NCBI RefSeq assembly: GCF_000002985.6
Contig: NC_003284.9
Location: forward strand, 14,198,001 to 14,262,000
DNA from: Caenorhabditis elegans
Taxonomy: Eukaryota > Nematoda > Chromadorea > Rhabditida > Rhabditidae
Length of the DNA: 64,000 bases
Direction of reading: 5' to 3'
Below, one piece after another: positions 12,383 through 42,953 of this stretch; positions within the stretch are counted from its first letter, which is position 1, and the number at the start of each line of letters is the position of its first letter. The translations under genes and the position numbers were made by a program. A model generated the notes under the pieces. The model had not been told where the DNA came from. It saw only the letters and a program-made list of their open reading frames with translations, and did no database searches.

Positions 12383-13697
12383 CGGTACTTGTGTATTATA
12401 CCCCCGCCGTTCTGAAAATTAAATTTTTAATTTATAAAATAAAAACGTGTGGAATTCTATTATATTTTTAGGAACTTTTTTAGGAACAAGGGAAACCTTT
12501 CAGCTCGTCCTCGGACTTCTGAATGAAACTTATTATAATTGAAAGAGGACATTAATAGAAGGTCACTCCAAAATTTTTAGTCTCGGAGGAGCACTTTGAA
12601 GTGGGTGAACATCGATCTGAAAAGTCCTATGCTCGAAAAACGGATTCCCTTTGGATACCTTTATCTCCGTGAAAAAAGTTTTTATGGCCAAGTGGTCAAC
12701 TACAAAGTTGTTTATCATAACTTAAAGAACAACTTTGTAGTTGATCGTTTTTTATCAAAAAATTTGTTGGTCGAGATATGAACAGGAAAAGAAGATAATA
12801 ATTCGAGCATGAATGTGCCGAACTTTACACAACTTTATCTCGAACAACAAATTTTTTGATAAAAAACGGTTAACTACACAGTTGTACTTTAAGTTATGAT
12901 AAACAACTTTGTAGTTGATCACTTTGCCATAAAAAAATTTTTCACGGAGATATAGGTATCCAAAGATCATGCGTTTTTCGAACATAGGGCTACTACTATA
13001 CCTCAATTTTGGATGTTAAACTCGTTTTCAAACATTCTAACTATAGAAACATCCAGTTTTGCATGGTTCTATAACATCTGGTCACTTTTTAGAAAGTTTT
13101 CGGAAAACAATTTTTTTTGAAAATTTTTGTAAATAAAATAGGCATGAGCACAAAAATCATTGAAAATTGAAAAAAAATATATTTCTGAAAGCGAACGACT
13201 TGACTTGTACATGCACGGGAATGAATGTATTAACCGTAAAAGTTGGAAAATGTGCATTTTCAGAATGCTTCCAGACTTCCATGAGCGCAAGAAAAATTAG
13301 AAAAAAAATTAACCACGACGGAAAACGAACCTACATCTATCATCTGATGGGCGAACCATTTACCACTGCGCCACCCATCTTCGATTTAAATCGAAATTAT
13401 ATCGTTACTTATTATTTATGTTCTTTAAACTTTCCACTAATGCAAAATTAGTGCTTTTGAGTGAGGGTGTAGAGGCATATTTTCAGATCGCCGTTTACCC
13501 ACTTCAAAGTGCTCCTCCGAGACTAAAAATTTTGGAGTGACCTTCTATTAAGGTCCTCTTTCAATTATAATAGGTTTTATTCGGAAGTCCGAGGACGAGC
13601 TGAAAGGCTCCCTGGGTATCACGTTTAATAAATACGGATAAATTAGTGGAAATTTAACTAATTTTTAAAATGGCGGGGGAATAATACACAAGTACCG
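12383..13697. mobile_element. Foldback DNA transposon, non-autonomous, with AATCTA target duplication
   Basis: The ends are inverted copies: CGGTACTTGTGTATTAT followed by a CCCCCGCC block on the left matches the complement of the right end with one mismatch. AATCTA occurs immediately outside both ends (12377-12382 and 13698-13703), consistent with a 6-bp target-site duplication. A second inverted pair links 12480-12620 with 13480-13620 (the CTCGTCCTCGGAC, TTTTTAGTCTCGGAGGAGC and ACTTTGAAGTGGG segments on the left recur as complements on the right). A third, independent palindrome, 12620-12990, is centred near 12805 and includes AACAACTTTGTAGTTGATC. No transposase frame is visible, so this is a composite foldback or MITE. 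The family is not assigned. Confidence 0.85.
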
Positions 13698-19900: not shown

Positions 19901-20983
19901 GGTGTAAACTTGGCTATCATTGGATATAACACAAGCCCTGGTTCACTTAACTCAAATGACTGGTATAATTATGTTTCACTCAGTACCGATGCTGATGTTG
20001 CGCCATTTGTGAATAGGTTCTATCTGAATTCTGGATTGAATAATAATCTGACAAACAATTGTAAGTCTACCAAAAAATGTACTAGCCTAGATGTGTACTG
20101 AATCAATAATACCAATCGCAAATATCAAAAAAATACAGATAGACTTTGAACATAAAGTATTGTTACGCATATTATAGAAACTTTATATGCCTTTCATATG
20201 CATTTAATAAAAACTTCAAATATATGTTTTGTTAATGCTAAATTGCTCCTACAAACCGGATATTAAAATGAAATTTCTTTTAAATTACTGATAAAGTATA
20301 AAAAGATAACTTTTCTATAGAACGTTGTTAGATTAAACGTTAATGCATTAATGTTACAGTTTTTTCATTATTGTTTAATTGCAGGGTGTAAAATAATCGC
20401 TGATGCTAATGCTAATAATTCTATTTCGGAACCATCAGACTTTTTTGGACCCCCCAAAAACGGAGCTTCTTGGGGAACTGATAATGGACAAAAGTCTAGA
20501 TACTGTAACTTCCAAGACTCTACCTACACTTATCAAAGAAAAGAGGTATCACATCAAGTTTGTCCAAACCTGAATAAAAACACAATTTTCAGCAAGATAA
20601 ACTGGTTACTTTGACGGTGTTCTACGAACTAGAAGTGGAGAAAGATTTTCTGAAGTTCTTCGCAGATGGTGTTGAAATTGAGAGGTATGATTTGATTCAA
20701 CAGACTATTTGCTATGACACTATGACACTATTGCTATTACAGACTATGTGTTCATTGAACTATACATTTTAGTTATTTACATTTCTTCGTGATTTCTCAG
20801 CGCGGTACGAACATAACTTTAAATTAAAATTTTGATTTCAGTTTCACCGGAGTGGATGTGAACAACGCAAGTTTTGACGTTGACGCTAATATCATCACCG
20901 CCAGGTTCACCAGCGATGCTGCTGGCATTCAACGTGGATTTAGTGTGACATTTGAAGAAACTAAGAGCAAACCCACTTCATAA
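16974..20983 (+). CDS. Secreted CUB / VWA-like / CUB-like protein, 507 aa, 12 exons
   Basis: Exons: 16974-17013, 17365-17537, 17588-17682, 17726-17820, 18455-18648, 19173-19301, 19350-19426, 19471-19584, 19849-20060, 20385-20545, 20593-20684, 20842-20983. The lengths sum to 508 codons. Order: signal peptide (MLTFLILSWLAFSG); cysteine-containing CUB-like domain (about 18-134) ending in YIYVEYTQ; Pro/Thr-rich linker (about 140-166); von Willebrand A-like fold (about 172-376) starting SHDILIMVNQRT, with TPYSPFYAAQGEIW, RSILLFTAWW and VNLAIIGYN; C-terminal CUB-like domain from the WCK at 376 onward (RYCNFQDSTYTYQ, VFYELEVEKDFLKFF). The metal-site motif DxSxS of true VWA domains is replaced by NQRTT, so metal-dependent ligand binding is unlikely. 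This belongs to a large nematode family of unknown function; some members are induced by pathogens. Two paralogues lie at 58281 and 59969. Confidence 0.9.
18848..19063. repeat. Near-perfect palindromic element in intron 5
   Basis: Inverted arms of about 90 bp: GAGTGTAGATAGTTAGAGAG and GTGACAGACATCCGGGACC on the left recur as the complement on the right, with a short central loop around TACAGAGCTTTCC. GC content is higher than in the flanks (GGGGCGCGGGAA). It looks like a dispersed C. elegans palindromic MITE. It lies between exons 5 and 6 of the first CUB/VWA gene, so the pre-mRNA would carry a long hairpin. Confidence 0.9.
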
Positions 20984-21306
20984 TTTCCATTCAAACATGT
21001 TTTGAAAATCTCTGTAAAGAAAAATATGAATCGTTCGTGACGTGGATTTTATTATTAAAACTTTTATATTCAATAAGGTAGTACAGTGGCTTTGAGTTGG
21101 GTGATGATAATGAAAACTAAAATAACAAAAACAATTGAGAAGTTGGGAGCGTAGATCATTCAGGATATGCAGAAATTATATAATATTTTATCTGTTCAAA
21201 AACCTGATAACTTCAACTTAAAAATGAATTCATTTCATAAAACTTTATTGAAAAGTTAAAGTGAACCAGCTTGGAATGTTAAAGTTTAAATTTTCTTTTT
21301 GGGTAG
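20984..21306. other. Short convergent intergenic region
   Basis: Lies between the stop of the plus-strand CUB/VWA gene and the stop of the minus-strand micro-exon gene. TTTATT at 21048-21053 is AATAAA for the minus-strand gene. AATAAG near 21072 is a variant signal for the plus-strand gene. The two 3' UTRs may overlap. Confidence 0.45.
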
Positions 21307-24300
21307 TCAGTCGATAGTAATCTGAAAAATATTTGTATACTTCCATTCAAAATATATTTATGTATATAGTTCCCTGGAAACTTCCAATAGTGACAACATA
21401 AAACTAGTAGAATTGGTACAATCCAGTCACTACTTTTTTTAAAATTGCAGTTCAATTATTGTTTAATATGTACTTACCACAATTGGAGATCTTGATCTTT
21501 GACGATGATTTTCTTCTTCATTTCCCAGAATTATCTGAACAATTTCAACAGTTACCTTTTGCAATTTCTAACAAATACTTACAACTTCGTCACGACTATT
21601 ATGATTTCTGCGAGACTGTCGCCGTGATGGTGAAGTCGGAATCTGAAAATTCATAGCATATAAATTTATTAACTAAATTTTGAGATTACCAAAAAATTTG
21701 TTTTTTTTTCAATCGAGTGAGTTTTTTCTTCTATACTGTTGATTGATTCTGTAGAAGCAACAGCAAAATTTTGATTCAAACACGAAGACTCTTCGAGGAG
21801 ATTTTCAGTTTAATCAATAAAATAGTCTCAATAAAGATAGTTTTATGATTTTAAATAGTGTAATGTAAGTTTACTTCATATTGTTGCGAAATATGTGTTA
21901 AGTGGGTATACCCGCTGAAAAAAAACTACAGAGCAGTAGTGCTTCTGAACCAAAAACAAAACTTTTCAAGTCAGGTTACTTTTTGTAAAGAATAATTAAT
22001 TACAACACGTTTTCAGAATTTTAGAATAGTGTGAACAAAATATATTCAGCTTACCTGATTTGAAGAGCTTTCGTCGTTTGAGTCGCCTAGCGTGATCTGA
22101 AATTCCTTTACAACTTTCACCACAAGTTGCTCCCGATTTGAAGACTTACGTAGTCCACGGGAATACTTCCATTCCTGTGAGGATATCGTCTTCCTCGTCG
22201 AATTGGATAATCCTTAAAAACGTTCGTATTCAAAAATTTAAAACTTCAAAAATTCATATACAAAAAATAAGACAAAATCTACATTTTCTATTTGAAAACA
22301 GTACTCACAGTTTCAATTGGAAGCCGGGGATTTCTTCGAGGATTTGCTGAAGGTTGGCTAATCTGAAAAATCAGTGCAAAGTATATGTAGATCAGTAATT
22401 TATTTTGGTAGTTGCTTATTTAATCAGTAAAGAACGAGACTCTGCAATTCCGAGATTAACACAGCAACTGCATTTCATTTTTTTATGAGGTTCCAGCTAT
22501 TTATTTATACTGTCTAAATAAATTATTTACCACTCCAAGAGATAGAAATGGATATTTGCGAGGAACCCGTCGTTTTGATGGTAGATTGGGAATTACCTGA
22601 AAATTCGTTTTCACAAAGATAGTTTTTTTTGTTTCTTTTTGCAAATCATCTCCATAGTTTTAATTTGAATAATTTTGAATAATAAATTTTGAAAATCTTA
22701 CCTCTGGAGCTTGTGAAGTTTCAGAAGTTGCAGTCATCATGTCTCTGGAAGAGGACGCTCTCTAAAATCAAACCATTTTGTAATCTCGTAAATTTTATTC
22801 ATATTGAACAAAAATTTCATCGTTGAAACTCGATAATATTATATGTTAAGTTTTAAATAACAGGTGTGTTTGAAAAACTCAATCTTACCTCTGGAATATT
22901 ATCTATGTGTTGCTCAGAGTCATGTGCAATTTTTGCTAGTGGCGTGGCCCCATGTGTACCCTGAACTAAGAGCATTATACTCACTTCAAAATGATACTTT
23001 TTAGTGTGTAAACTTTGAAATGAAATTTGTGTTTAAAGAATACCTGCGAGACAGTTTCTTCATGTTCTTGTGCATCGAGGTCAGCAGTTTCAGTTTCAGT
23101 CTGTCTTTCATCTTCCATTCTTAGAAGACTCTCGGAAACTTCCTAAACATAAATAATTATTTCATGGTTTAAACTATTACACCTCGTTCCTAAAAACTAG
23201 GTACCTGGGAAAGAACTTCATTTTAAAACTATGTTTGTGTTTATAAAATTTAAGATTACCCGAGCATTAATGTCGCCGTGTAGTGGTGAAGCCAGTTCTG
23301 GTGCCGCGATTACCGGGGGCTCCAGGCCATTCTGAAAAAGGGTTTCTCAAATAATTTCTATTTGCTCTCTAAATTCTGGTACTGAGAAATAACTCCTACA
23401 ATATTTCTTAACAATGTAAATAACTTTTGCATGGCACTAAACATGTTTTTTTTCAACTGATGTAATTGGCATATTAGCTTTTTTATTATAATATAAAAAT
23501 AATTTTTTTCAATTCAAAATTTTCAATTTTATGGATTCAACAAAACTTACCTCTGGGGTTTGAAATGTTTCAGCCATTTCCGCAACAGCAACCATTTCTT
23601 TTCTAGATGTGTTAGAGGAAGTTTCCTGGAAATAAATTTTTTACTTAAACCACAAACTCCAAAATGAAACTTGATAAGAAAAGCATTTCGGAATAATTTT
23701 TAAGCTTAAAAATCAATATGATGATATCTCTTTTTCCTCTTCAACTTTCTATGTTAATCAATTGTCATCTGACCTCGGACATGTTCCAATCTGGTCACCT
23801 TATCATTTACTTTTCTTACCTCATCTCATTTTTATTCCTTATTTTGCTCTCAATTTTCAAGCCAAGAAATAGTTAATAAATAAATTAAATTAATGACCTG
23901 CGAATTCGTCTCCATCTTCATATCTATATCACTCACTGGATTCACTGGAGCCGAGTCGTGCTCATACTGAAAAAACAATTGTTCCCTTTTTCACTAATAA
24001 ACTTCCTATTGTTCTTTATCAACTCACATGTTCTCTAACATTTTCTAAATCCTAAAAATCATTTAGTGTTATGTCACATGCTTTTAACACACTTTTTTCC
24101 TAAAAAATTATATACATAAGTACTTGAGAATAAGTACATTTTCCAGCAACATTATTGTTGAAAAAAACAAAAATTACCTGAGCATCATCGATGCATCGTG
24201 CTTCAGCGAGTTCTGGTATCTCGTTTTGCGGGGGTTTCAAATCTTTCTGGAAAAAATTTCTCCAGTAATTTCTTTGCATTCTTTAAATTCTGTCATTAAA

Positions 24301-25256
24301 TAATAACTCCTACCATTTGTTCAACATCAGCTACAACTCCTCCAGGTGGGCTTTCATCAGCACTCTGGAAACAAATAATCAATTTATGGCATTAAGATTG
24401 TTTATTCTGTTTTTGGAAACTAATTACAGGATATCATTTGTAAAAAGTACATTTACAGTGTAAGAAAAGTATGTGAAACCCTTTATCATTACTGTCGTTT
24501 CACCGTTAAAAAAAATCAAAATTACCCGAGGAATACTATTTTCATTTTGTGCTGGCTTTCGAATGATGTAACTGAAAAAGTTATCTTACTGCTGATTGTG
24601 AAGCTCCAACCTGCTGAGCAGGAGCCACGGCTGCCGTTGCCACGTTCACAGAAGTTCCCTTAAAAATGTATTAAAATGCATTAAAGCATATGCTTAACTT
24701 TACAACATATTGTTTCGCTAGAATAAATAAAATAATAAATCTGTGAAAAGTTATGGGAAATCAGTTTTGAAAAGTTTTGAAATGTACACTTTTTGTGAAT
24801 GGCATGAAACTAATAATAAGAAAAATTTAGCTTACAGTTTGTAACATACATATTTTTGAAACAATGATTTCACATAGAAAACTTACATTGGACGAATGGC
24901 CAAAATACATTTGAACGTATAACCATTGATCATGGGTCATTCCTCCGTACTCGTTGTCGTCAGAAACTTGTCTCTGAAAATTTTATTTCATTCAACGTTT
25001 TAACTTTTTGATGTTTTTTCCCAATTTTATTTTTATTATATTTACAGTTTCAAGGTTTTTCACTATCTATAAATTTAAACAAGCTAAAACAAAATAAGTT
25101 CACAAAGAAAAATGCATATTATTAGGCTCAAAACCTGCTGTGAAATACTTTTTTGTAGTGCTAACTATTTTCAAAAATTGAAAATCTTACGTTCAAAACA
25201 GGATCCTGTGGTGAATTCGGTAGATTCTCATCCTCTCTGTCTCTCGGTTCAGACAT
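21307..25256 (-). CDS. Unrecognised acidic-to-Arg/Ser-rich protein from about 20 micro-exons, about 392 aa
   Basis: I do not recognise this gene. Exons in transcription order: 25256-25191, 24973-24887, 24658-24611 (or -24590), 24555-24526, 24364-24314, 24246-24178, 24051-24028, 23966-23898, 23625-23551, 23331-23260, 23142-23044, 22960-22889, 22761-22702, 22596-22531, 22362-22309, 22212-22150, 22096-22055, 21642-21583, 21534-21478, 21321-21307. Each is flanked by an AG acceptor (mostly TTTCAG-like; the fourth exon's is weak, see findings) and a GT donor, and each is a whole number of codons. Together they form one frame from ATG to TGA. The N-terminus is acidic with a short aromatic stretch (DQWLYVQMYFGH). 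The middle is low-complexity Glu/Pro/Ser/Thr. The C-terminus has clusters of Arg, Ser and Pro (RRGRRYPHRNG, SPSRRQSRRNHNSRD, HRQRSRSP) like an RS region. No folded domain is visible, so disorder and RNA- or protein-binding are guesses. The exon chain is the evidence; expression is untested. Confidence 0.8.
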
Positions 25257-27597
25257 TTTCAGCAACAAAGATAATTTGTTCTGAAATACCGTATATCATA
25301 ATAAAATTCGGCTACAAAATTAAATATGAAGAACTGCATTTCATAGTACTAGGGTTTTTTTTAATAATAAGCAAAAAAAGTAATAACAAAATAATTCAAC
25401 CTTCTCAGTTTTTTGTGTGAATTTTCCATCAAATTTGTTAGAAAAGTTTACGACAGTGTTCAAGGGATAGTATGGTGTATGCACTTATAATGAAATACAG
25501 AGTTGGTTGACCTACACAAAGAGAGGGATTTTACGACCGTTGAACAATGCACCCATTTTATTAATGTGAGACTAGAATGTGAAAAAATTGTGCACATTAA
25601 ACCAATATCGCCATTGTATGTATGTTCATAGTTTTTACATCGTTCTATTTATGAAGGTTGGCTCGGGGTGCGCCCAACTACTATGGGTTTAAGCGGTTTA
25701 GGGCATTTCCAAAATTTCTTATGGGAAACTAATATTGGAATCGGATTCAGCATACCAAAAAACCTCTGCGTCTACAGTTTTATAAAAAATTGAGAAGAAC
25801 AGAGCAAAAAATGTTTTAAAAAAAACCGACCCACTACTGCTATGGGAGTCTGGGATTTTTGATAATTTCACCAAAAAATCTCATATTTTGAAAAGCATAA
25901 AATTTTTCAGTTTCAAAATTGCATTTCAAGTTTTTTATGAAAAAAAAACTACGTCACTTTTGAAGTAAATCAAAGAATTCAAAATCATAAGGTGAATTAT
26001 ACCAAATTTGAAAATCAGTACACTGATTGTTAAAATTACTTAACAGGAAAGAATTTTGAAACAATGAGTTACTTTCAAGACTACAGAGAAATAGAGAAAG
26101 AGGCAGTTGCACTAATCTTTTTCATAATTCCCACTGAGAAATTCATATCAGCAACCAAAATTTGAATAGAAAGAAAGGTGAGGCAGGGCTTTTGAAAAAG
26201 AAGAGAGCAGAGAGGCAGAGAACAGATACGGAGGACATGTGTGAAAGTGATGCAACTTTATATTAGGACACAGCTATTGTGATGTGAATGCGCGGTAGAA
26301 AATACGTGCTACCGAGCTTACGAAAGAATCTCCATCAACTTTCAGCACTATGGCTAAACCTTAATTAAAATACCACTACACTGAAAAAAACCCGTGTTGA
26401 TCAAGACTATATGAATTTCAAAAAAAAATTGAAAAGATTATTGTTTAATAACTCAAAAAAAAGAAGACAATGTGAAATTGAGTTGAGCAACAGTGGAAAA
26501 TGCTCTGTGCGTCTAGCGCAGTATACTACGGTGTTTGCAAACGATTGGTAATTTTTGAAAAGTGAACCGCAATTATGGCGACACGTTCTCAGGGCACAAC
26601 ATGTTCTTATATACAGTTTAGTTCCTATGAAGTTAAAATCTTGACACCATTTCAAAATGTTCAAATATTACCATCCGGCAATTTGAAGTGTGTATTGATG
26701 TCAATTATGAAATCAACGTACATCTTTTTGACATCCTTTTGCAAGAAACTTAATAGTGACATTTTATGTTTTATGTATAGTTTAAAGCATTCCAGTATGT
26801 CTTTCAATTGGCAAGCTTAACTTGAAAGTCCGAACGTGAGCTTACGTGATTCTTATTTCCGCCACTAAAAATAACACAAAGGAACGTATTCACCCACGGA
26901 CATGTAAGATATGCCCAAGTTCTGACTAATTTCTATAAACTTTGGCTTTTTTCGAGTCTGCAAAGAGTGTTCCTGATTGCGAGGAACAACAAAAATAGTG
27001 GAAAAAAAAGATAATTACGGCAGCTTGTAAATCCAAAAAGTGTTCCTACTTCCACTACAAAATATGTTGCAGAATTTAGAAATAAACACCAACAACTAAA
27101 AAATGGACATCAAAAAACTTTGCAATTGTTTCCTACCTCCACTTTTAATCACTTCTGCGGACTCTTTTGATGCCCTTTCAATGAGAAAACACCTTTCGCG
27201 CATGTTTGTGATATCAACAAGTGCAAAGTAATATGAACTAACGTTGTACTTTTTGATTTTTTTTTCTACCGAATTTCCTACCAAAAGTAGCTACCAAATC
27301 AGCTGATTTTGTTGGCAGTATTCCGCTGCGCTTCATATAGAAGAAGTTTAAACTTTTTTCGAAAAATTCCCAGACAAATTAGTTATGTTCTCGTCGCATG
27401 TTGTCTTGCGTCCTTCGTATCAGTCATTTTTCTTCCATGTATTTTCTTAAGTGTAGGCCACTAGATACAAACTGACCAGACTACAACGTAAATGGGCGGA
27501 GTTTCCCGGAAAGGAGAAGATGAGATAATGACCTCATGTATAAATATCGCCTAGACCACACAGATTTATTAACCGTCCTCTTATTTTTCTGTGCGAG
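25257..27597. other. Intergenic between the micro-exon gene and the P450
   Basis: At about 25640-25870 there is a repeat-like block (GGTTGGCTCGGGG, CCCAACTACTATGGG and later CCGACCCACTACTGCTATGGG), probably dispersed-repeat sequence. The remainder is AT-rich. The last 250 bp form the P450 promoter. No exon is supported. Confidence 0.4.
27540..27547 (+). promoter_or_regulatory. TATA box of the P450 gene
   Basis: TATAAATA lies 51 bp before the P450 ATG, in the right place for a TATA-driven start with a short 5' UTR. An AGATAA GATA-type site, common in gut-expressed worm genes, lies just upstream at about 27523. Gut expression is inference. Confidence 0.55.
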
Positions 27598-30919: not shown

Positions 30920-30991
30920 TGACCACTGAGCGGATCGAACGCCCAATCTTTCGATCTGGAGTCGAACGCGCTACCATTGCGCCAAGCAGTC
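30920..30991 (-). tRNA. tRNA-Trp (CCA anticodon)
   Basis: The minus strand folds as a standard tRNA without an intron. The acceptor GACTGCT pairs with AGTGGTC (two G-U pairs) with discriminator A. The D arm holds GGCGCAATGGTAGCGC. The anticodon stem TTCGA/TCGAA encloses the loop CTCCAGA (anticodon CCA, tryptophan). The T arm holds GCGTTCGATCC. Box A and box B are intact, and a run of T follows the 3' end (AATGTTTTTTC), the Pol III terminator. Nothing suggests a pseudogene. Confidence 0.95.
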
Positions 30992-31479
30992 ATACTTTGA
31001 AGAGAGAGGAGGGTGGCAAACGTGTGTAGTATTAGGCTCACAATTTCTCTAGTTTGGAAAATATCTTTAGTGCATTGGTACAGTGGTAGTAGTACGTCAC
31101 ATGAAAAAAGTTACCAAGCTCCGAAAATTCTAAAAATTCAACAAAAAAAAAACAAGAATCACATATACATATTGGGACTAAAATAAAAGATTACAACGGG
31201 AAATTATTATCAGAAACGTGAGAAAAAACAGTGCTCGACACGCTGTGTTTCTAACAAGTTCTAATTGTAAGTTTGGGAGAATGAGATCAATGTTAAGAAG
31301 AAGATTTAGTATGCTATAGAAAGTTAACATTTCAAGATGATACATTAACGCGAATAGAGGATCGGAGGTCTGATAAGATGATTACCCAGATTCGGGCCTC
31401 CTGAGAGAAGAAGCTTGAGGAAGAAAGGTGGGGAATGTAGGAGAAAATAAACAATTTAATTTTTTTGTTTTTGTTTTTT

Positions 31480-31662
<183 letters not shown>

Positions 31663-31667
31663 TGTGA

Positions 31668-32876
31668 TCACCCTGTGATTGTAGGTGCTCCAAATGGACG
31701 AACAACTAAAACACTGTTTCTGGCAATCAATCGGTGAGAGCGGAGTGATTTCAAACACGGGAATGGCCAAATACAACATCTTCGGACCTGGAAATAGATA
31801 TTGATACCCGATAGTACCTCTTGAAACCTACAGTTTTGCTGAAGAACAATAGCAGCAACGGTTGTGTGAGAGTGAGTGCGTCGCTGGCGAAAGGAATGAG
31901 AATGACGATCCAACTAAGAATCTCGTCCGTCGATTCCGATTTGAACGATAAACCACATGCAATTATTATTGCTTTAATCAAAGTCAGTATAACCAGAAAA
32001 ATATCAATGAAGAAAATCACAAAGGACATTTGCAAGAGATTTTTTTCCGGGACTCTTCCTCCGGAGCTAAAAAAATGTGAGGACTATTTCAATAATTAAC
32101 CAGACCAATACTTACAGCTTCAAAATGATAACCTTGCGAACTGACATGAAATTCAAAAAGCTATTCATTGCAGTTATCACGGACAGCGTTGGTGCCAAAA
32201 TGGTATAGATCAGCGAGCGTTTCTACAATAAAATTATATTCTAAACACATTAGATTTTCAAAAATAGGAACACCGTGCAAATAACTTACTATTGTGGTAT
32301 CTAGAAAAAAGTAGTCACCATGTGAATGATACACGTAGTAAGACCGTCCCACCAAAATTGGTACAGCAAAAGCCCATGGAATTGCAAAAATTGCAAACAC
32401 AAACCACCAAAATCGTTTTCTCCAGAAGAGCTCCGATTTTATAGGATTCGTAATCAATGAGAAGCGATTGAGGGATATGAAGAAATTGTAGATGTACTGA
32501 GCATATGCAAAGTAGTAGTGCAGAAAGTGAAACACTTTAACTGGAAAGATCACCTCCATGTTGTGCTCGTTGTGTGTTAAGAAGAAGTTTGACAAAGTTT
32601 CGTTGATTCCATTGCTTTGCGGAAGTCGAAGGCTTATGAGACTGTTGAAATATGTCATCATGTTCTGAAGCAAGCATGTTAATCAACACGTAAGTTAAGG
32701 AAAAGTTGTTTTACCATGAAGAAGCCAACAATGAACAGTTTGTAAAACGAACTCCGAAACGATGATTCCGACTTTTTATGTGCAATGATGATGATGACCA
32801 CATAGGTGTACAGAACTAGTAGTGCTGCTCCGTAGACTGATGTGATAATAAACCTTAACAAGCTTGCCAGCGTCAT
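31668..32876 (-). CDS. Seven-transmembrane chemoreceptor (Srg/Srv-type), 332 aa, 5 exons
   Basis: Exons: 32876-32715, 32664-32290, 32222-32116, 32066-31832, 31787-31668 (333 codons with the stop). Hydrophobic segments: TM1 RFIITSVYGAALLVLYTYVV; TM2 after FYKLFIVGFFM with the class motif LISLRLPQ; TM3 YYFAYAQYIYNFFISLNRFS; TM4 WWFVFAIFAIPWAFAVPIL; TM5 in exon 3; TM6 FFIDIFLVILTLIKAI; TM7 SDALTLTQPLLLLFFSKTVR. The RLPQ and LNRF motifs and a TM7 ending in SKTVR fit the nematode Srg superfamily (srg/srv and relatives); I cannot fix the class. These are odorant-type receptors of sensory neurons. A tandem paralogue lies about 3 kb upstream at 35944-37309. All splice sites are good. Confidence 0.88.
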
Positions 32877-35943: not shown

Positions 35944-37309
35944 TTAATATTTGGTTAGTTCCTGATGCATATTTCTTGATCTGACAAAAAATCGGTTATT
36001 AAGAAAAACCTTGAGAAAGGGTAAACGTTCGATGCACTTTTGACGAAGCTGTAAAAATCTTATTTCTGACTAATCTTTGAATATGTATTCAAGAAACTTA
36101 CAGTGCTACTGAAATACAGCAAAAGAAGCGGCTGAGTCAGAGTTAGTGCGTCACTAGCAAACGGAACCAGTAAATCTATCCAGTCCACTAAACGTTCGAA
36201 AAATTCAGAAGAGTTTTTCAGCTCCAACAGAAAAATTATCGCTTTAAATGTGGATAAAACTGCTAGAAAAGAGTCAATGCCAAACATAGCAAGCGACATA
36301 TAAAATAAATTTGTGTCCGGAACACTTCTCAATGTTCTTAAAATGGAAGTTATGTTCATATTGTTTCCATTGCTTGAAACTTACTTTTTCAATACAAGCA
36401 GTTTTTTATATGCCTTGATGTTCAGAACGGTGTTAAAAATTGTAATGATAAATAGATTTGGAGCAAGGAATCCATAGATTGCTTTATGTCCCTGAAAATG
36501 ATTTAAATGGAAAATCCACAACTGTATAGCAAAAAAAGGTTACCAGCGTTGAGCTTATGTAGAAATTGTCCTTTGAGCTCACATATGTGTAGTATGAACG
36601 ATTGAAAAAAATCAGGCCGGCTGGAATCATTGGATATACAAACATAATAGTCACAAATATCCATAGCGAACGTTTCCATCTTTTCTCAATATCAAGTAGA
36701 CTAGTGATTGCGCAGAATCGATTGTAAGAGATCAGAAAGTTATAGATGTACTGAGTATACGCAAAATAATAATGTAGTGCATGAAATAAGTTGATCGGGC
36801 AGCCCATGTTCATATTGAACTCATTATGTGTGAGAAAGAAATTAGAAAGATTTCCGTTTATTCCAGTGTTTTGAGGAAGACGGATACTTATAAAGCTGTT
36901 TAGATAGGTAAGGATATTCTGAAAGTTAACTTGTTTATTCTGTGCTAGGTTAGTCAGATTGGAGCTGAGATTAAATGATAAAAAACCAATGATGCATTTT
37001 ATTTTTTTCGATTCCAGTACATTTCGATTCATGTATATACCGGAACTATGTCTTATAAATATGTTGAAGAAAAAACAATCATATCATAAGTGTATGACCC
37101 TTTTAAAGTTTAAAACTGAAACTTCTATGAACCATGATGTATCCAATCGCGAATAGTCGATAAAAGGGACTCCCAATCATTGAACTACTTGCACAGATGA
37201 CAGCGGTTACAAGAGTATAAAGCAAGAGACAAACGATTCCATAAATAGTGGAAATTATCAGTCTTAAAGGACTTGAAGATGGCATGGTTTTTGTATTCGG
37301 CCAAAACAA
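35944..37309 (-). CDS. Seven-transmembrane chemoreceptor (Srg/Srv-type), tandem paralogue, 332 aa, 5 exons
   Basis: Exons: 37309-37133, 36918-36544, 36491-36385, 36336-36102, 36048-35944 (333 codons with the stop). Exons 2, 3 and 4 are 375, 107 and 235 nt, identical in length to those of the receptor at 31668-32876. Aligned motifs include FYRLFAIGYIM, ILTYLNSFISIRLPQ, FFLTHNEFNM, YYFAYTQYIYNFLISYNRF and PFASDALTLTQPLLLLYFSS. The final exon gives TLRQKCIERLPFL, matching the partner's TVRRCCIWPFPCL. The gene is intact except that the only in-phase donor of exon 1 is ATG|GTTCAT, a poor splice site compared with GTAAAA in the partner. It could be a recently weakened receptor or simply inefficiently spliced. 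Chemosensory role inferred from family. Confidence 0.82.
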
Positions 37310-40722: not shown

Positions 40723-42953
40723 ATGAGCGAATCACGCAGGCCACCATTACCGGCAAAAATAGTATCAAATTTAACACTTTTTTCGAAAAACTAAATAGTA
40801 TTTCAGACTGTGAGCCGCGATGATATGCGTAGGTTTGTGCCAGCACTTGACAATTTTGGAAAGCCAATTTTTGCAACGTTTGTCTCAAAAGGTACAGGAA
40901 ATCCAGGCTCTTCTGATCGTCAGTTGTTTGCTTTCTTACAAAAATACAAAAAATAAAAATTTAGAACCGTCAACTTCATCTGCTGGAAACGTACATCGAA
41001 ATTCAACAATCAATCAAGGTGCAAATGATGGTTCAGAAAGAAACACCCGTGCAGTTACAGCTAGACAATCGGCAGGTAGAATCGAAAGTGCACCAGTTGA
41101 AGTCGCAAACCCTGCAACACAATCTGCAATCGTTCAAGTTTTGACAACAGGCGAGGCTAGTCAACTGCATGAAAAAATTCTGGAATCACCCAAAGACAAA
41201 TGGTACTATTACTTGGACCAAACAAGGGCAAACCAGATAGTTGAGGTGGATACACGTTTGCCTAGAACAGAAGGAAAATGTCCAGATCAAAAGGATAAAA
41301 AGCTTGACGAACAGGCTCGTATTGAACGGAACGTTGCTGGTATCTTGAAGAATGCGGCTCTCGAGATTTCAAACAGGTAAGCGACAACATTTCAAAAAAA
41401 AAAACAGCGTGAAGGAATCCTTGTTAATTCGACTTAAAATAGAGGAAGAAGCGCTGAAAAATTTACATTTTGAAGTGTCTCGTGTAGTGAATCCAGCAAT
41501 TACTTATTTCAGAAACGACGATCCCCAGAACTCAACACCAAAATGCAGTGATACCAAGGTTAGTATTCTAGTGCGATGTTCAGTACGGAGTACTTCGTAA
41601 CTGTTGGTTTTAAAAATTCAAATCTCAAATTAATAAAATAAGGAACAACATATTTTAATATCCAGAAACGACACGACTTATTATTTTTTGTTTCAGAAAA
41701 ATACCAAAATTTCACCAAAGAAATCTGCTTCGCCGATTAACCAACCCAACAAGCCCGACGCCGATGACATCAAAATGGGCGACGATGTTGCCAAACTGCC
41801 ATCGCCACCAAACTTGAGCAACAAGAGAAAAGCAGCCCCATTGAAGTTTGGAAACGAAAAAGTGAAAGCTGCAAAACTATTTGACAGTGTGCCACCTGTT
41901 CAGAAATGTTCGAAGAATTCAGTTGAAGCGACTTCACCTGGAATGGAATCACAAGATGTAAATGAGTCGCGTAGACTTGTTGCCAAAGTGCTCCCAGATC
42001 ATGAAGGGTCTTCTTCCCAAGATTTGTCGGATGATGGTTATTCATCTCCTGAATCTTCTTCAATGCAACTGGGTCGAAATTCAATGACATCAAACGAAGA
42101 AACTTCTCACCCGGTACAACAGGAAATGAACAAAACAGACATGGTCATCGCAGATGTGATTTCTCAGAACAGAGTCCACCAGCCATCTCAAGGACCTCTC
42201 CATCAAGAAGCTGATGCTCCTGAAGCAAATCGTAGGCAGCCTCGTCAATCAGCAGAAAGCCGACGGAGAGTGCCTGCCAACCCAGAATACATGACACCAG
42301 AAGCTTCAGAAATGCAGCAGCCCGTTCAGCCAGTCAGGCCGACTTTGTTAGCCGTAAGTTTATCGACTTTTTTATCCACTTGTTAAAATGATTTGTTGCA
42401 GTTTGAACATGAAAGTGCACGAGTTTACATTCCAGAAAATTGTGACATGAACTACGAATTGTGGGATGTAAGTAATGTTTTCTTAGAAAACAAATATTGT
42501 AATTTTATGAAAATTTGATAATTTTTTGAACATGTGAAAGCAATTTTACTCTATCAACAATGCTAAATGCTTACATGGCGAAAAACCGTGTTTTGAAGAT
42601 CAAATTTTGGTTTAAAAAAGTCAGACTTCAAGTTAAAAGCTTAAATTAGTTAATTAACCTCTAAAGCAAGTATGTTTCAGTGTCAGGATGTAGCTAATTG
42701 GGCCGCAATGTTCATCATAAATAATCCATACAAGACCGTAGATCCACTCATCAAAGATGCCATTGACGGAAGCATGATGCGTGATTTTCTTACTGATAAG
42801 GATCTCAGGGCCATTCTCAACATCCCATTTGGTCACTACCACAAGGTGAAATACAATGCTGCCAAGCTTATCAATCACGTGGCAGAAATTCGGTACAACA
42901 ACGCGATGAATGTATACGAAAGAGCCATGGCGGTCTGGAATGCTAGAAGATAA
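40723..42953 (+). CDS. SAM-domain protein, 525 aa, 7 exons
   Basis: Exons: 40723-40761, 40807-40891, 40965-41376, 41513-41558, 41697-42353, 42402-42467, 42681-42953 (526 codons with the stop). The ATG follows a trans-splice-like acceptor by 16 nt. The C-terminal 100 residues hold a sterile alpha motif: YELWDCQDVANWAAMFI, then LIKDAIDGSMMRDFLTDKDL, then ILNIPFGHYHKVKYNAAKLI, with the usual five-helix spacing. The N-terminal three-quarters is polar and low-complexity: a small conserved-looking segment (DDMRRFVPALDNFGKPIFATF), a Gln/Ser/Asn-rich region and a basic cluster near residue 238 (NKRK) that could be a nuclear signal. The architecture, disordered with a terminal SAM, recalls Polycomb-type SAM proteins such as SOP-2, but that is analogy, not identification. 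Confidence 0.88.

Follow-up and report, generated by a model that had tools for sequence, protein, structure and literature searches.

What produces a gene in which every exon holds a whole number of codons? The question is posed by a predicted gene of Caenorhabditis elegans, located on the minus strand of a 64,000-nucleotide stretch of contig NC_003284.9 (positions 14,198,001 to 14,262,000; hereafter the window). It extends from an ATG at 25256 to a TGA ending at 21307, which corresponds to 14,219,307-14,223,256 of the contig (C6), apparently the X chromosome. The lengths of its 19 predicted exons, in order of transcription, are 66, 87, 69, 51, 69, 24, 69, 75, 72, 99, 72, 60, 66, 54, 63, 42, 60, 57 and 15 nt: all are multiples of three, and all 18 introns, 48-412 nt long, are in phase 0. 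We confirm this chain of short, frame-neutral exons as a predicted gene structure; it is unusual, yet not a new kind of system. The sequence points with good probability to a single protein-coding gene that became longer as short phase 0-0 exons were duplicated along with adjacent intron sequence. In a preliminary description of this DNA the exons had been given as multiples of three between 15 and 99 nt, which holds for 19/19 of them; its totals of about 20 exons, 19 introns and 392 residues become 19, 18 and 389.

The structure was examined with a gene finder, a dynamic-programming model that combines splice-site and codon scores and imposes no constraint on phase. At an exon cost of -9 it returned 19 exons and 18 phase-0 introns, taking exon 7 in a 30-nt form (23937-23966); the model listed here carries the 69-nt form (23898..23966). 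Competing in-frame donors occur in two exons: exon 3 (24590..24658) can be 69 or 48 nt long (24611-24658), and in exon 7 the donor of the 30-nt form scores higher, with 8.1 versus 4.3 for the 69-nt form. The predicted product has 389 amino acids with the longer exon 7 and 376 with the shorter one. All-phase-0 chains were obtained in 7 of 12 finder settings, each with 17 or 18 of the 19 exons exact; six of these settings gave 18/18 phase-0 introns and one gave 19/19. With a free start, the finder arrived at the same ATG. The gene scores 296.5, whereas the best score in 30 dinucleotide shuffles is at most 32.4 (at most 6.9 for phase-0-only chains); the opposite strand of the same region scores 42.3. 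Downstream of the stop, at a distance of 58 nt, lies an AATAAA poly(A) signal (21244..21249, minus strand), and 24 nt upstream of the ATG there is a TTTCAG acceptor with a score of 10.2, from which an exon would start at 25280: it could be a trans-splice site.

Exon duplication, one option offered in the preliminary description, is visible at the DNA level, introns included. Self-comparison of the minus strand with blastn aligns 24326-24050 with 23413-23141 at 65.5% over 287 columns (E 1.15e-25). The first copy comprises the end of exon 4 (24314..24364), intron 4, exon 5 (24178..24246), intron 5 and the first bases of exon 6 (24028..24051); the second comprises the 3' part of intron 8, exon 9 (23260..23331), intron 9 and the first bases of exon 10 (23044..23142). 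Exons 5 and 9 are thus homologous, with one 3-nt indel between them. The second copy retains the equivalent of the exon 4 donor; the upstream alignment holds no convincing exon, and a ghost of exon 4 at this place was rejected. A further match, 23573-23506 with 22724-22658 (71%, E 5e-5), joins the end of exon 8 (23551..23625) and the start of its following intron to those of exon 12 (22702..22761). Both cases show directly that exons were copied together with flanking intron.

The 19 exons were compared with 40-nt flanks in 171 pairs (z against 60 shuffles; 15 of the pairs listed). The highest z values among the pairs listed belong to exons 5/9 (19.5), 8/12 (7.4), 14/17 (7.3), 13/17 (6.8) and 13/15 (5.8). 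Pairs 15/16, 17/18 and 6/7 also gave high values and were discarded for their overlapping flanks. We did not rely on pairs with z of 5.2 or below, such as 3/16 and 11/12; the 3' end of exon 11 (22889..22960) resembles those of exons 8 and 12, weakly (z 5.2 with exon 12). At the protein level, the lowest shuffle p among 153 exon pairs were 0.001 for 5/9, 0.002 for 13/17, 0.004 for 14/15, 0.0045 for 2/4 and 0.0075 for 8/12, all uncorrected, with about one pair in 153 expected by chance at 0.0075. Four exons carry a basic module: exon 13 (22531..22596, KRRVPRKY), exon 14 (22309..22362, NPRRNP), exon 15 (22150..22212, RRYPHRN) and exon 17 (21583..21642, RRQSRRN). Their cores align in an RR-x-P/S-R-R/K-N/Y-like pattern and the four look related to one another, exon 17 to exons 13 and 14 among them. 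This common core favours the frame used there, despite the better codon score of another frame in exons 14 and 15.

On the minus strand, exons 14 (22309-22362) and 15 (22150-22212) are also open in the +1 frame, where their codon scores are higher; no model returned at codon weight 1 makes use of it.

A number of results weigh against growth by duplication, and they are given here next to the explanations that they would favour. The first concern the finder. Its splice and codon tables for C. elegans are background values rather than the outcome of training. The remaining 5 of the 12 settings (all four at codon weight 0 and one at weight 0.5) yield one or two non-zero phases, with 14 or 16 exons exact. 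At codon weight 0, exons 3, 7 and 10 are not exactly recovered, nor, at high cost, are exons 11 and 12. At the loosest exon cost (-4), the optimum has 26 exons including doubtful short ones, and two introns of non-zero phase surround exon 3 and a 46-nt stretch described below. By codon score, the frame used ranks first in 15 exons of the 19 and not in exons 14, 15, 16 and 19; exons 14, 15 and 16 score higher for codons in another frame.

Could the uniform phase then be an accident, or the outcome of picking splice sites to fit? We regard this as very improbable. The deviating settings speak for chance, and the earlier reader did choose the sites by eye. Moreover, Caenorhabditis introns are most often in phase 0, with a share above 50% in all species studied, according to the excerpt consulted of a preprint (PMC11230420). 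Nevertheless, the unconstrained finder reaches all-phase-0 chains in most settings, nothing similar appeared in the 30 shuffles, and 18 independent introns would all be in phase 0 with a chance of 0.397^18 = 6e-8 or 0.5^18 = 4e-6. The finder itself is not tied to phase 0, since it assigns this phase to only 5 of the 8 introns of the neighbouring cytochrome P450 gene. As a control set we used 100 jobs covering 200 kb of contig C6 plus the greater part of the remaining window, in which stretches overlap and models may merge genes. Models of at least 100 bits were obtained in 40 of the 100 jobs: phase 0 accounts for 239 of their 602 introns (40%), their internal exon lengths are spread 209/179/174 over the three remainders modulo 3, and the longest phase-0 run in 25 of the 40 is 8.

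The introns are, however, not independent, because phase 0-0 exons were duplicated, and 10-12 introns (our estimate) are therefore a fairer count than 18. The chance then becomes about 1.5e-5 to 1e-3 per gene. We infer that such a uniform phase is not extraordinary once all genes with many exons in a genome are considered. The interpretation given with the preliminary description is supported in part.

Divergence between the copies is a second matter. Exons 5 and 9 are identical at 46/69 positions (67%) and are no more alike than the rest of their block (73-74%), with 59/80 upstream, where copy 1 holds intron and the last bases of exon 4, and 83/114 downstream. Of the 23 codons, 14 match at the first position, 13 at the second and 19 at the third; the proportions of nonsynonymous (pN) and synonymous (pS) differences are 0.41 and 0.23, on 69 nt that offer too few sites for a test. 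Neither the identity of exon versus block nor pN/pS on these 69 nt gives a sign of purifying selection since the 5/9 duplication. Pair 8/12 has pN 0.40 and pS 0.53, pair 13/17 has 0.37 and 0.42; with such small numbers, the values fit relaxed or diversifying change. Finally, we found no duplication evidence for exons 1 (25191..25256, MSEPRDREDENLPNSPQDPVLN), 2 (24887..24973), 4, 6, 7, 10 and 19 (21307..21321, encoding ITID and the stop), and weak evidence for exons 3, 11, 16 and 18.

A pseudogene, that is a decaying gene whose exons diverge at the speed of introns, would account for exons 5 and 9 being no more similar than their surroundings, for third positions being the most alike, and for a possible further copy, the 46-nt stretch, that breaks the frame. 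Such decay is improbable in view of a frame that is open from end to end (389 codons in 19 exons), of splice sites that are for the most part sound, and of the acceptor before the ATG and the AATAAA after the stop. The only indel within the exon 5/9 alignment is, besides, one of 3 nt, against 1, 1, 1, 2, 3, 4 and 9 nt in the rest of the block.

Searches of the genome with the protein, with two DNA stretches and with exon 2, which has a single genomic match, returned this locus only; because the search scores the best candidates only (15 places for this gene's own 19 exons), a diverged paralogue may have been missed. The protein gave 15 matches at E up to 10, all inside the gene. A plus-strand gene at 40-43 kb with similar Arg/Pro stretches was considered as a paralogue and rejected (BLASTP E 1.2 at best).

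The frame-breaking stretch deserves attention of its own. It occupies 24526..24571 on the minus strand, resembles an exon and has splice-site scores of 11.9 and 7.9. Joined after exon 3 it shifts the frame, and translation would end at codon 84 (codon 77 if exon 3 has its 48-nt form). One blast piece links it to the exon 9 unit (50 nt, 68%, E 0.05; 29 nt of it inside the stretch) and another to the exon 5 unit (26 nt, 85%, E 0.05), of which just 5 nt fall in the stretch and the rest in donor and intron. Taken with 40 nt downstream, it reaches z 5.3 with exon 9, 5.2 with exon 11 and 4.5 with exon 5, and stays below 1 for the other 15 of the 18 exons tested. Its peptide is nearest to that of exon 5 (p 0.010, best of 19 exons, uncorrected). 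These measures make kinship with exons 5 and 9 likely but not certain; the stretch could be a decayed third copy or a poison exon. The rule of whole codons in every exon, as first stated, agrees with the 19 exons and 18 introns of the model and would be broken here, should mature transcripts include the stretch.

How would such a gene arise? From the symmetric-exon chain in 7 of 12 settings and the duplicated blocks, we propose that recombination or slippage within introns copies one or two exons at a time. Because all boundaries are in phase 0, an exon can be gained, lost or skipped while the frame is kept, and such changes would be tolerated; the structure would thus maintain its own phase 0, a lock-in that needs no selection for isoforms. 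Since 0-0 exons were duplicated, much of the phase uniformity follows without selection for skipping.

The reverse proposal is that selection keeps the exons symmetric, the gene being an isoform generator with numerous combinations of skipped exons, like the micro-exon genes of schistosomes. As anticipated in the preliminary description, any exon can be left out in frame: none of the 17 single-exon skips breaks it. Both competing donors of exons 3 and 7 keep the frame as well, and the consecutive exons 10, 11 and 12 have acceptors of 3.0, 5.2 and 4.3, the first being the lowest in the gene, compared to a control median of 5.9. On the other hand, 15/18 acceptors and 16/18 donors exceed the control medians (5.9 and 5.1), the low donors being those of exon 7 in its long form and of exon 10, and even the three low acceptors lie above the control 10th percentile of 1.7. 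As 0-0 exon duplication already yields much of the pattern, we hold selection for isoforms to be unlikely. If the gene grew by copying 0-0 exons, skipping would be harmless, and alternative splicing is permitted by the predicted structure; that skipping serves to make isoforms is doubtful, though a little less so than that selection for it shaped the exons. The first places to look for isoforms would be exons 10-12, with their below-median acceptors, and exon 7, with its two donors.

The predicted product is divided into two parts of opposite charge. Residues 1-253 have a net charge of -37 and residues 254-389 of +7, with 20 Arg and 2 Lys in 136 residues; the charge-hydropathy relation places both among disordered-type sequences. 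The preliminary view of a disordered protein with an acidic front and an Arg-rich tail (there Arg/Ser-rich) is supported, as is the statement that no domain family is recognised: a Pfam search at E up to 1 gave 0 families. A search of the Protein Data Bank (PDB), also at E up to 1, gave 0 matches. Hydropathy averaged over 19 residues peaks at 0.66, less than a membrane segment would need, and hydropathy alone, judged without a signal-peptide predictor, shows nothing hydrophobic close to the N-terminus (9-residue means of -0.58 at best in the first 20 windows). The whole could be read as an acidic arm, encoded by spacer exons that are in part duplicated, followed by a basic tail with the related RR-x-P/S-R-R/K-N/Y modules, which may bind nucleic acid or a partner. 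We take the product to be a disordered and probably nuclear protein; a nuclear role as such is conceivable, with a likelihood somewhat short of even.

Two of the tail exons contain sites that resemble SUMO-interacting motifs: exon 16 (22055..22096) encodes ITLGDSNDE, and exon 18 (21478..21534) starts with IILGNEEE and includes RSRSP. One regular expression for the motif gave three matches in the product, including an overlapping pair (shuffling p 0.004), and a second gave one match (p 0.44); both expressions were written after the sequence was seen, and the sites are a lead only.

Which known systems does the gene resemble? Tandem exon duplication with one phase is a feature of the collagen, elastin and titin PEVK genes. 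The gene shares with them repeated exons of one phase class, a disordered or fibrous product and a frame that is kept on gain or loss of a unit, and its exons and flanking intron are recognisably copied (E 1e-25 for the 5/9 block, E 5e-5 for 8/12). Its modules differ in that they are short, have diverged and fall into at least three kinds, with no recognised repeat family. The RS and RR motifs of the tail recall arginine/serine-rich nuclear proteins; unlike SR proteins, which combine an RNA recognition motif (RRM) with a long RS domain, the product matches neither an RRM nor any other Pfam family (E up to 1), and it contains 8 RS/SR dipeptides in 389 residues.

The third comparison is with the micro-exon genes (MEGs) of Schistosoma. 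In the excerpts consulted, their coding region is described as made mostly of very small symmetric exons, about 10-20 in number, with products that have a signal peptide and are seemingly restricted to flatworms (PMC4350168, PMC10526429); the exons measure 6-81 bp, mostly 15 bp, and the introns up to 5 kb (PMC10526429). The nematode gene is alike in its very small symmetric coding exons (19/19 multiples of three, 15-99 nt) and in its disordered-type product. It is unlike them in having exons of 87 and 99 nt and only one of 15 nt, introns of 48-412 nt, no signal-like N-terminus and a single locus found, in a nematode genome. The likeness is one of exon symmetry and architecture only. One might go further and imagine a convergent nematode counterpart of the flatworm genes: an exon accordion of interchangeable modules with isoforms made by skipping, in which the decayed 46-nt copy, with its strong splice sites, would be the sole frame-breaking element, a poison switch that lowers expression. 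We give this picture little credence.

No title or abstract describing this gene was found in the literature on micro-exon, symmetric-exon and duplicated-exon genes, among the part of the matches covered, which included few subscription papers. If the proposed history is confirmed, one compact gene of a genetic model animal would display how exons are duplicated and diverge, how they may be lost and how the frame is locked in, and deleting exons there would put isoform use to the test. It would also mean that a uniform phase need not imply selection for alternative splicing.

The gene lies between two plus-strand genes. One, at about 17-21 kb, ends at 20983; a predicted 229-residue piece of it has a weak match to the VWA family (E 0.0078, below Pfam's cut-off), six separate open reading frame (ORF) pieces have no VWA match in Pfam, and a PDB search gave E 0.35 at best, to an unrelated protein. 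The other, from about 27.7 kb, is the cytochrome P450. This P450 suggested K06G5.1 and K06G5.2 as candidate names. In the excerpts consulted, K06G5.2 is CYP-13B2 (PMC8945457), which may be the neighbouring P450, and K06G5.1 appears among the von Willebrand A genes (PMC2375032). We presume K06G5.1 to be the 17-21 kb neighbour rather than the micro-exon gene; the positive selection reported for K06G5.1 in CB4856 (PMC4023591, in the excerpt consulted) is for this reason not transferred to the micro-exon gene. The name K06G5.3 was not mentioned in what a literature search for K06G5 names returned.

Elsewhere in the window, a predicted Ser/Pro/Arg-rich gene occupies 40795-42953 on the plus strand. 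Two large ORFs of it matched 0 and 1 Pfam families (the latter at E 0.032, below the cut-off), and its last ORF, SAM-like at first sight, matched 0. Two pieces of Srg-family chemoreceptor genes are found on the minus strand at 32161-32682 and 36484-37083. At 12581-13015, ORFs on opposite strands have closely similar translations (FGYLYLREK.FYG..NYKVVYHNLK), which indicates an inverted repeat, perhaps a transposon remnant. A long (CA/GT)n run at 31441-31700, near a tRNA gene on the minus strand (30920-30991), appears as His-Thr and Cys-Val ORFs.

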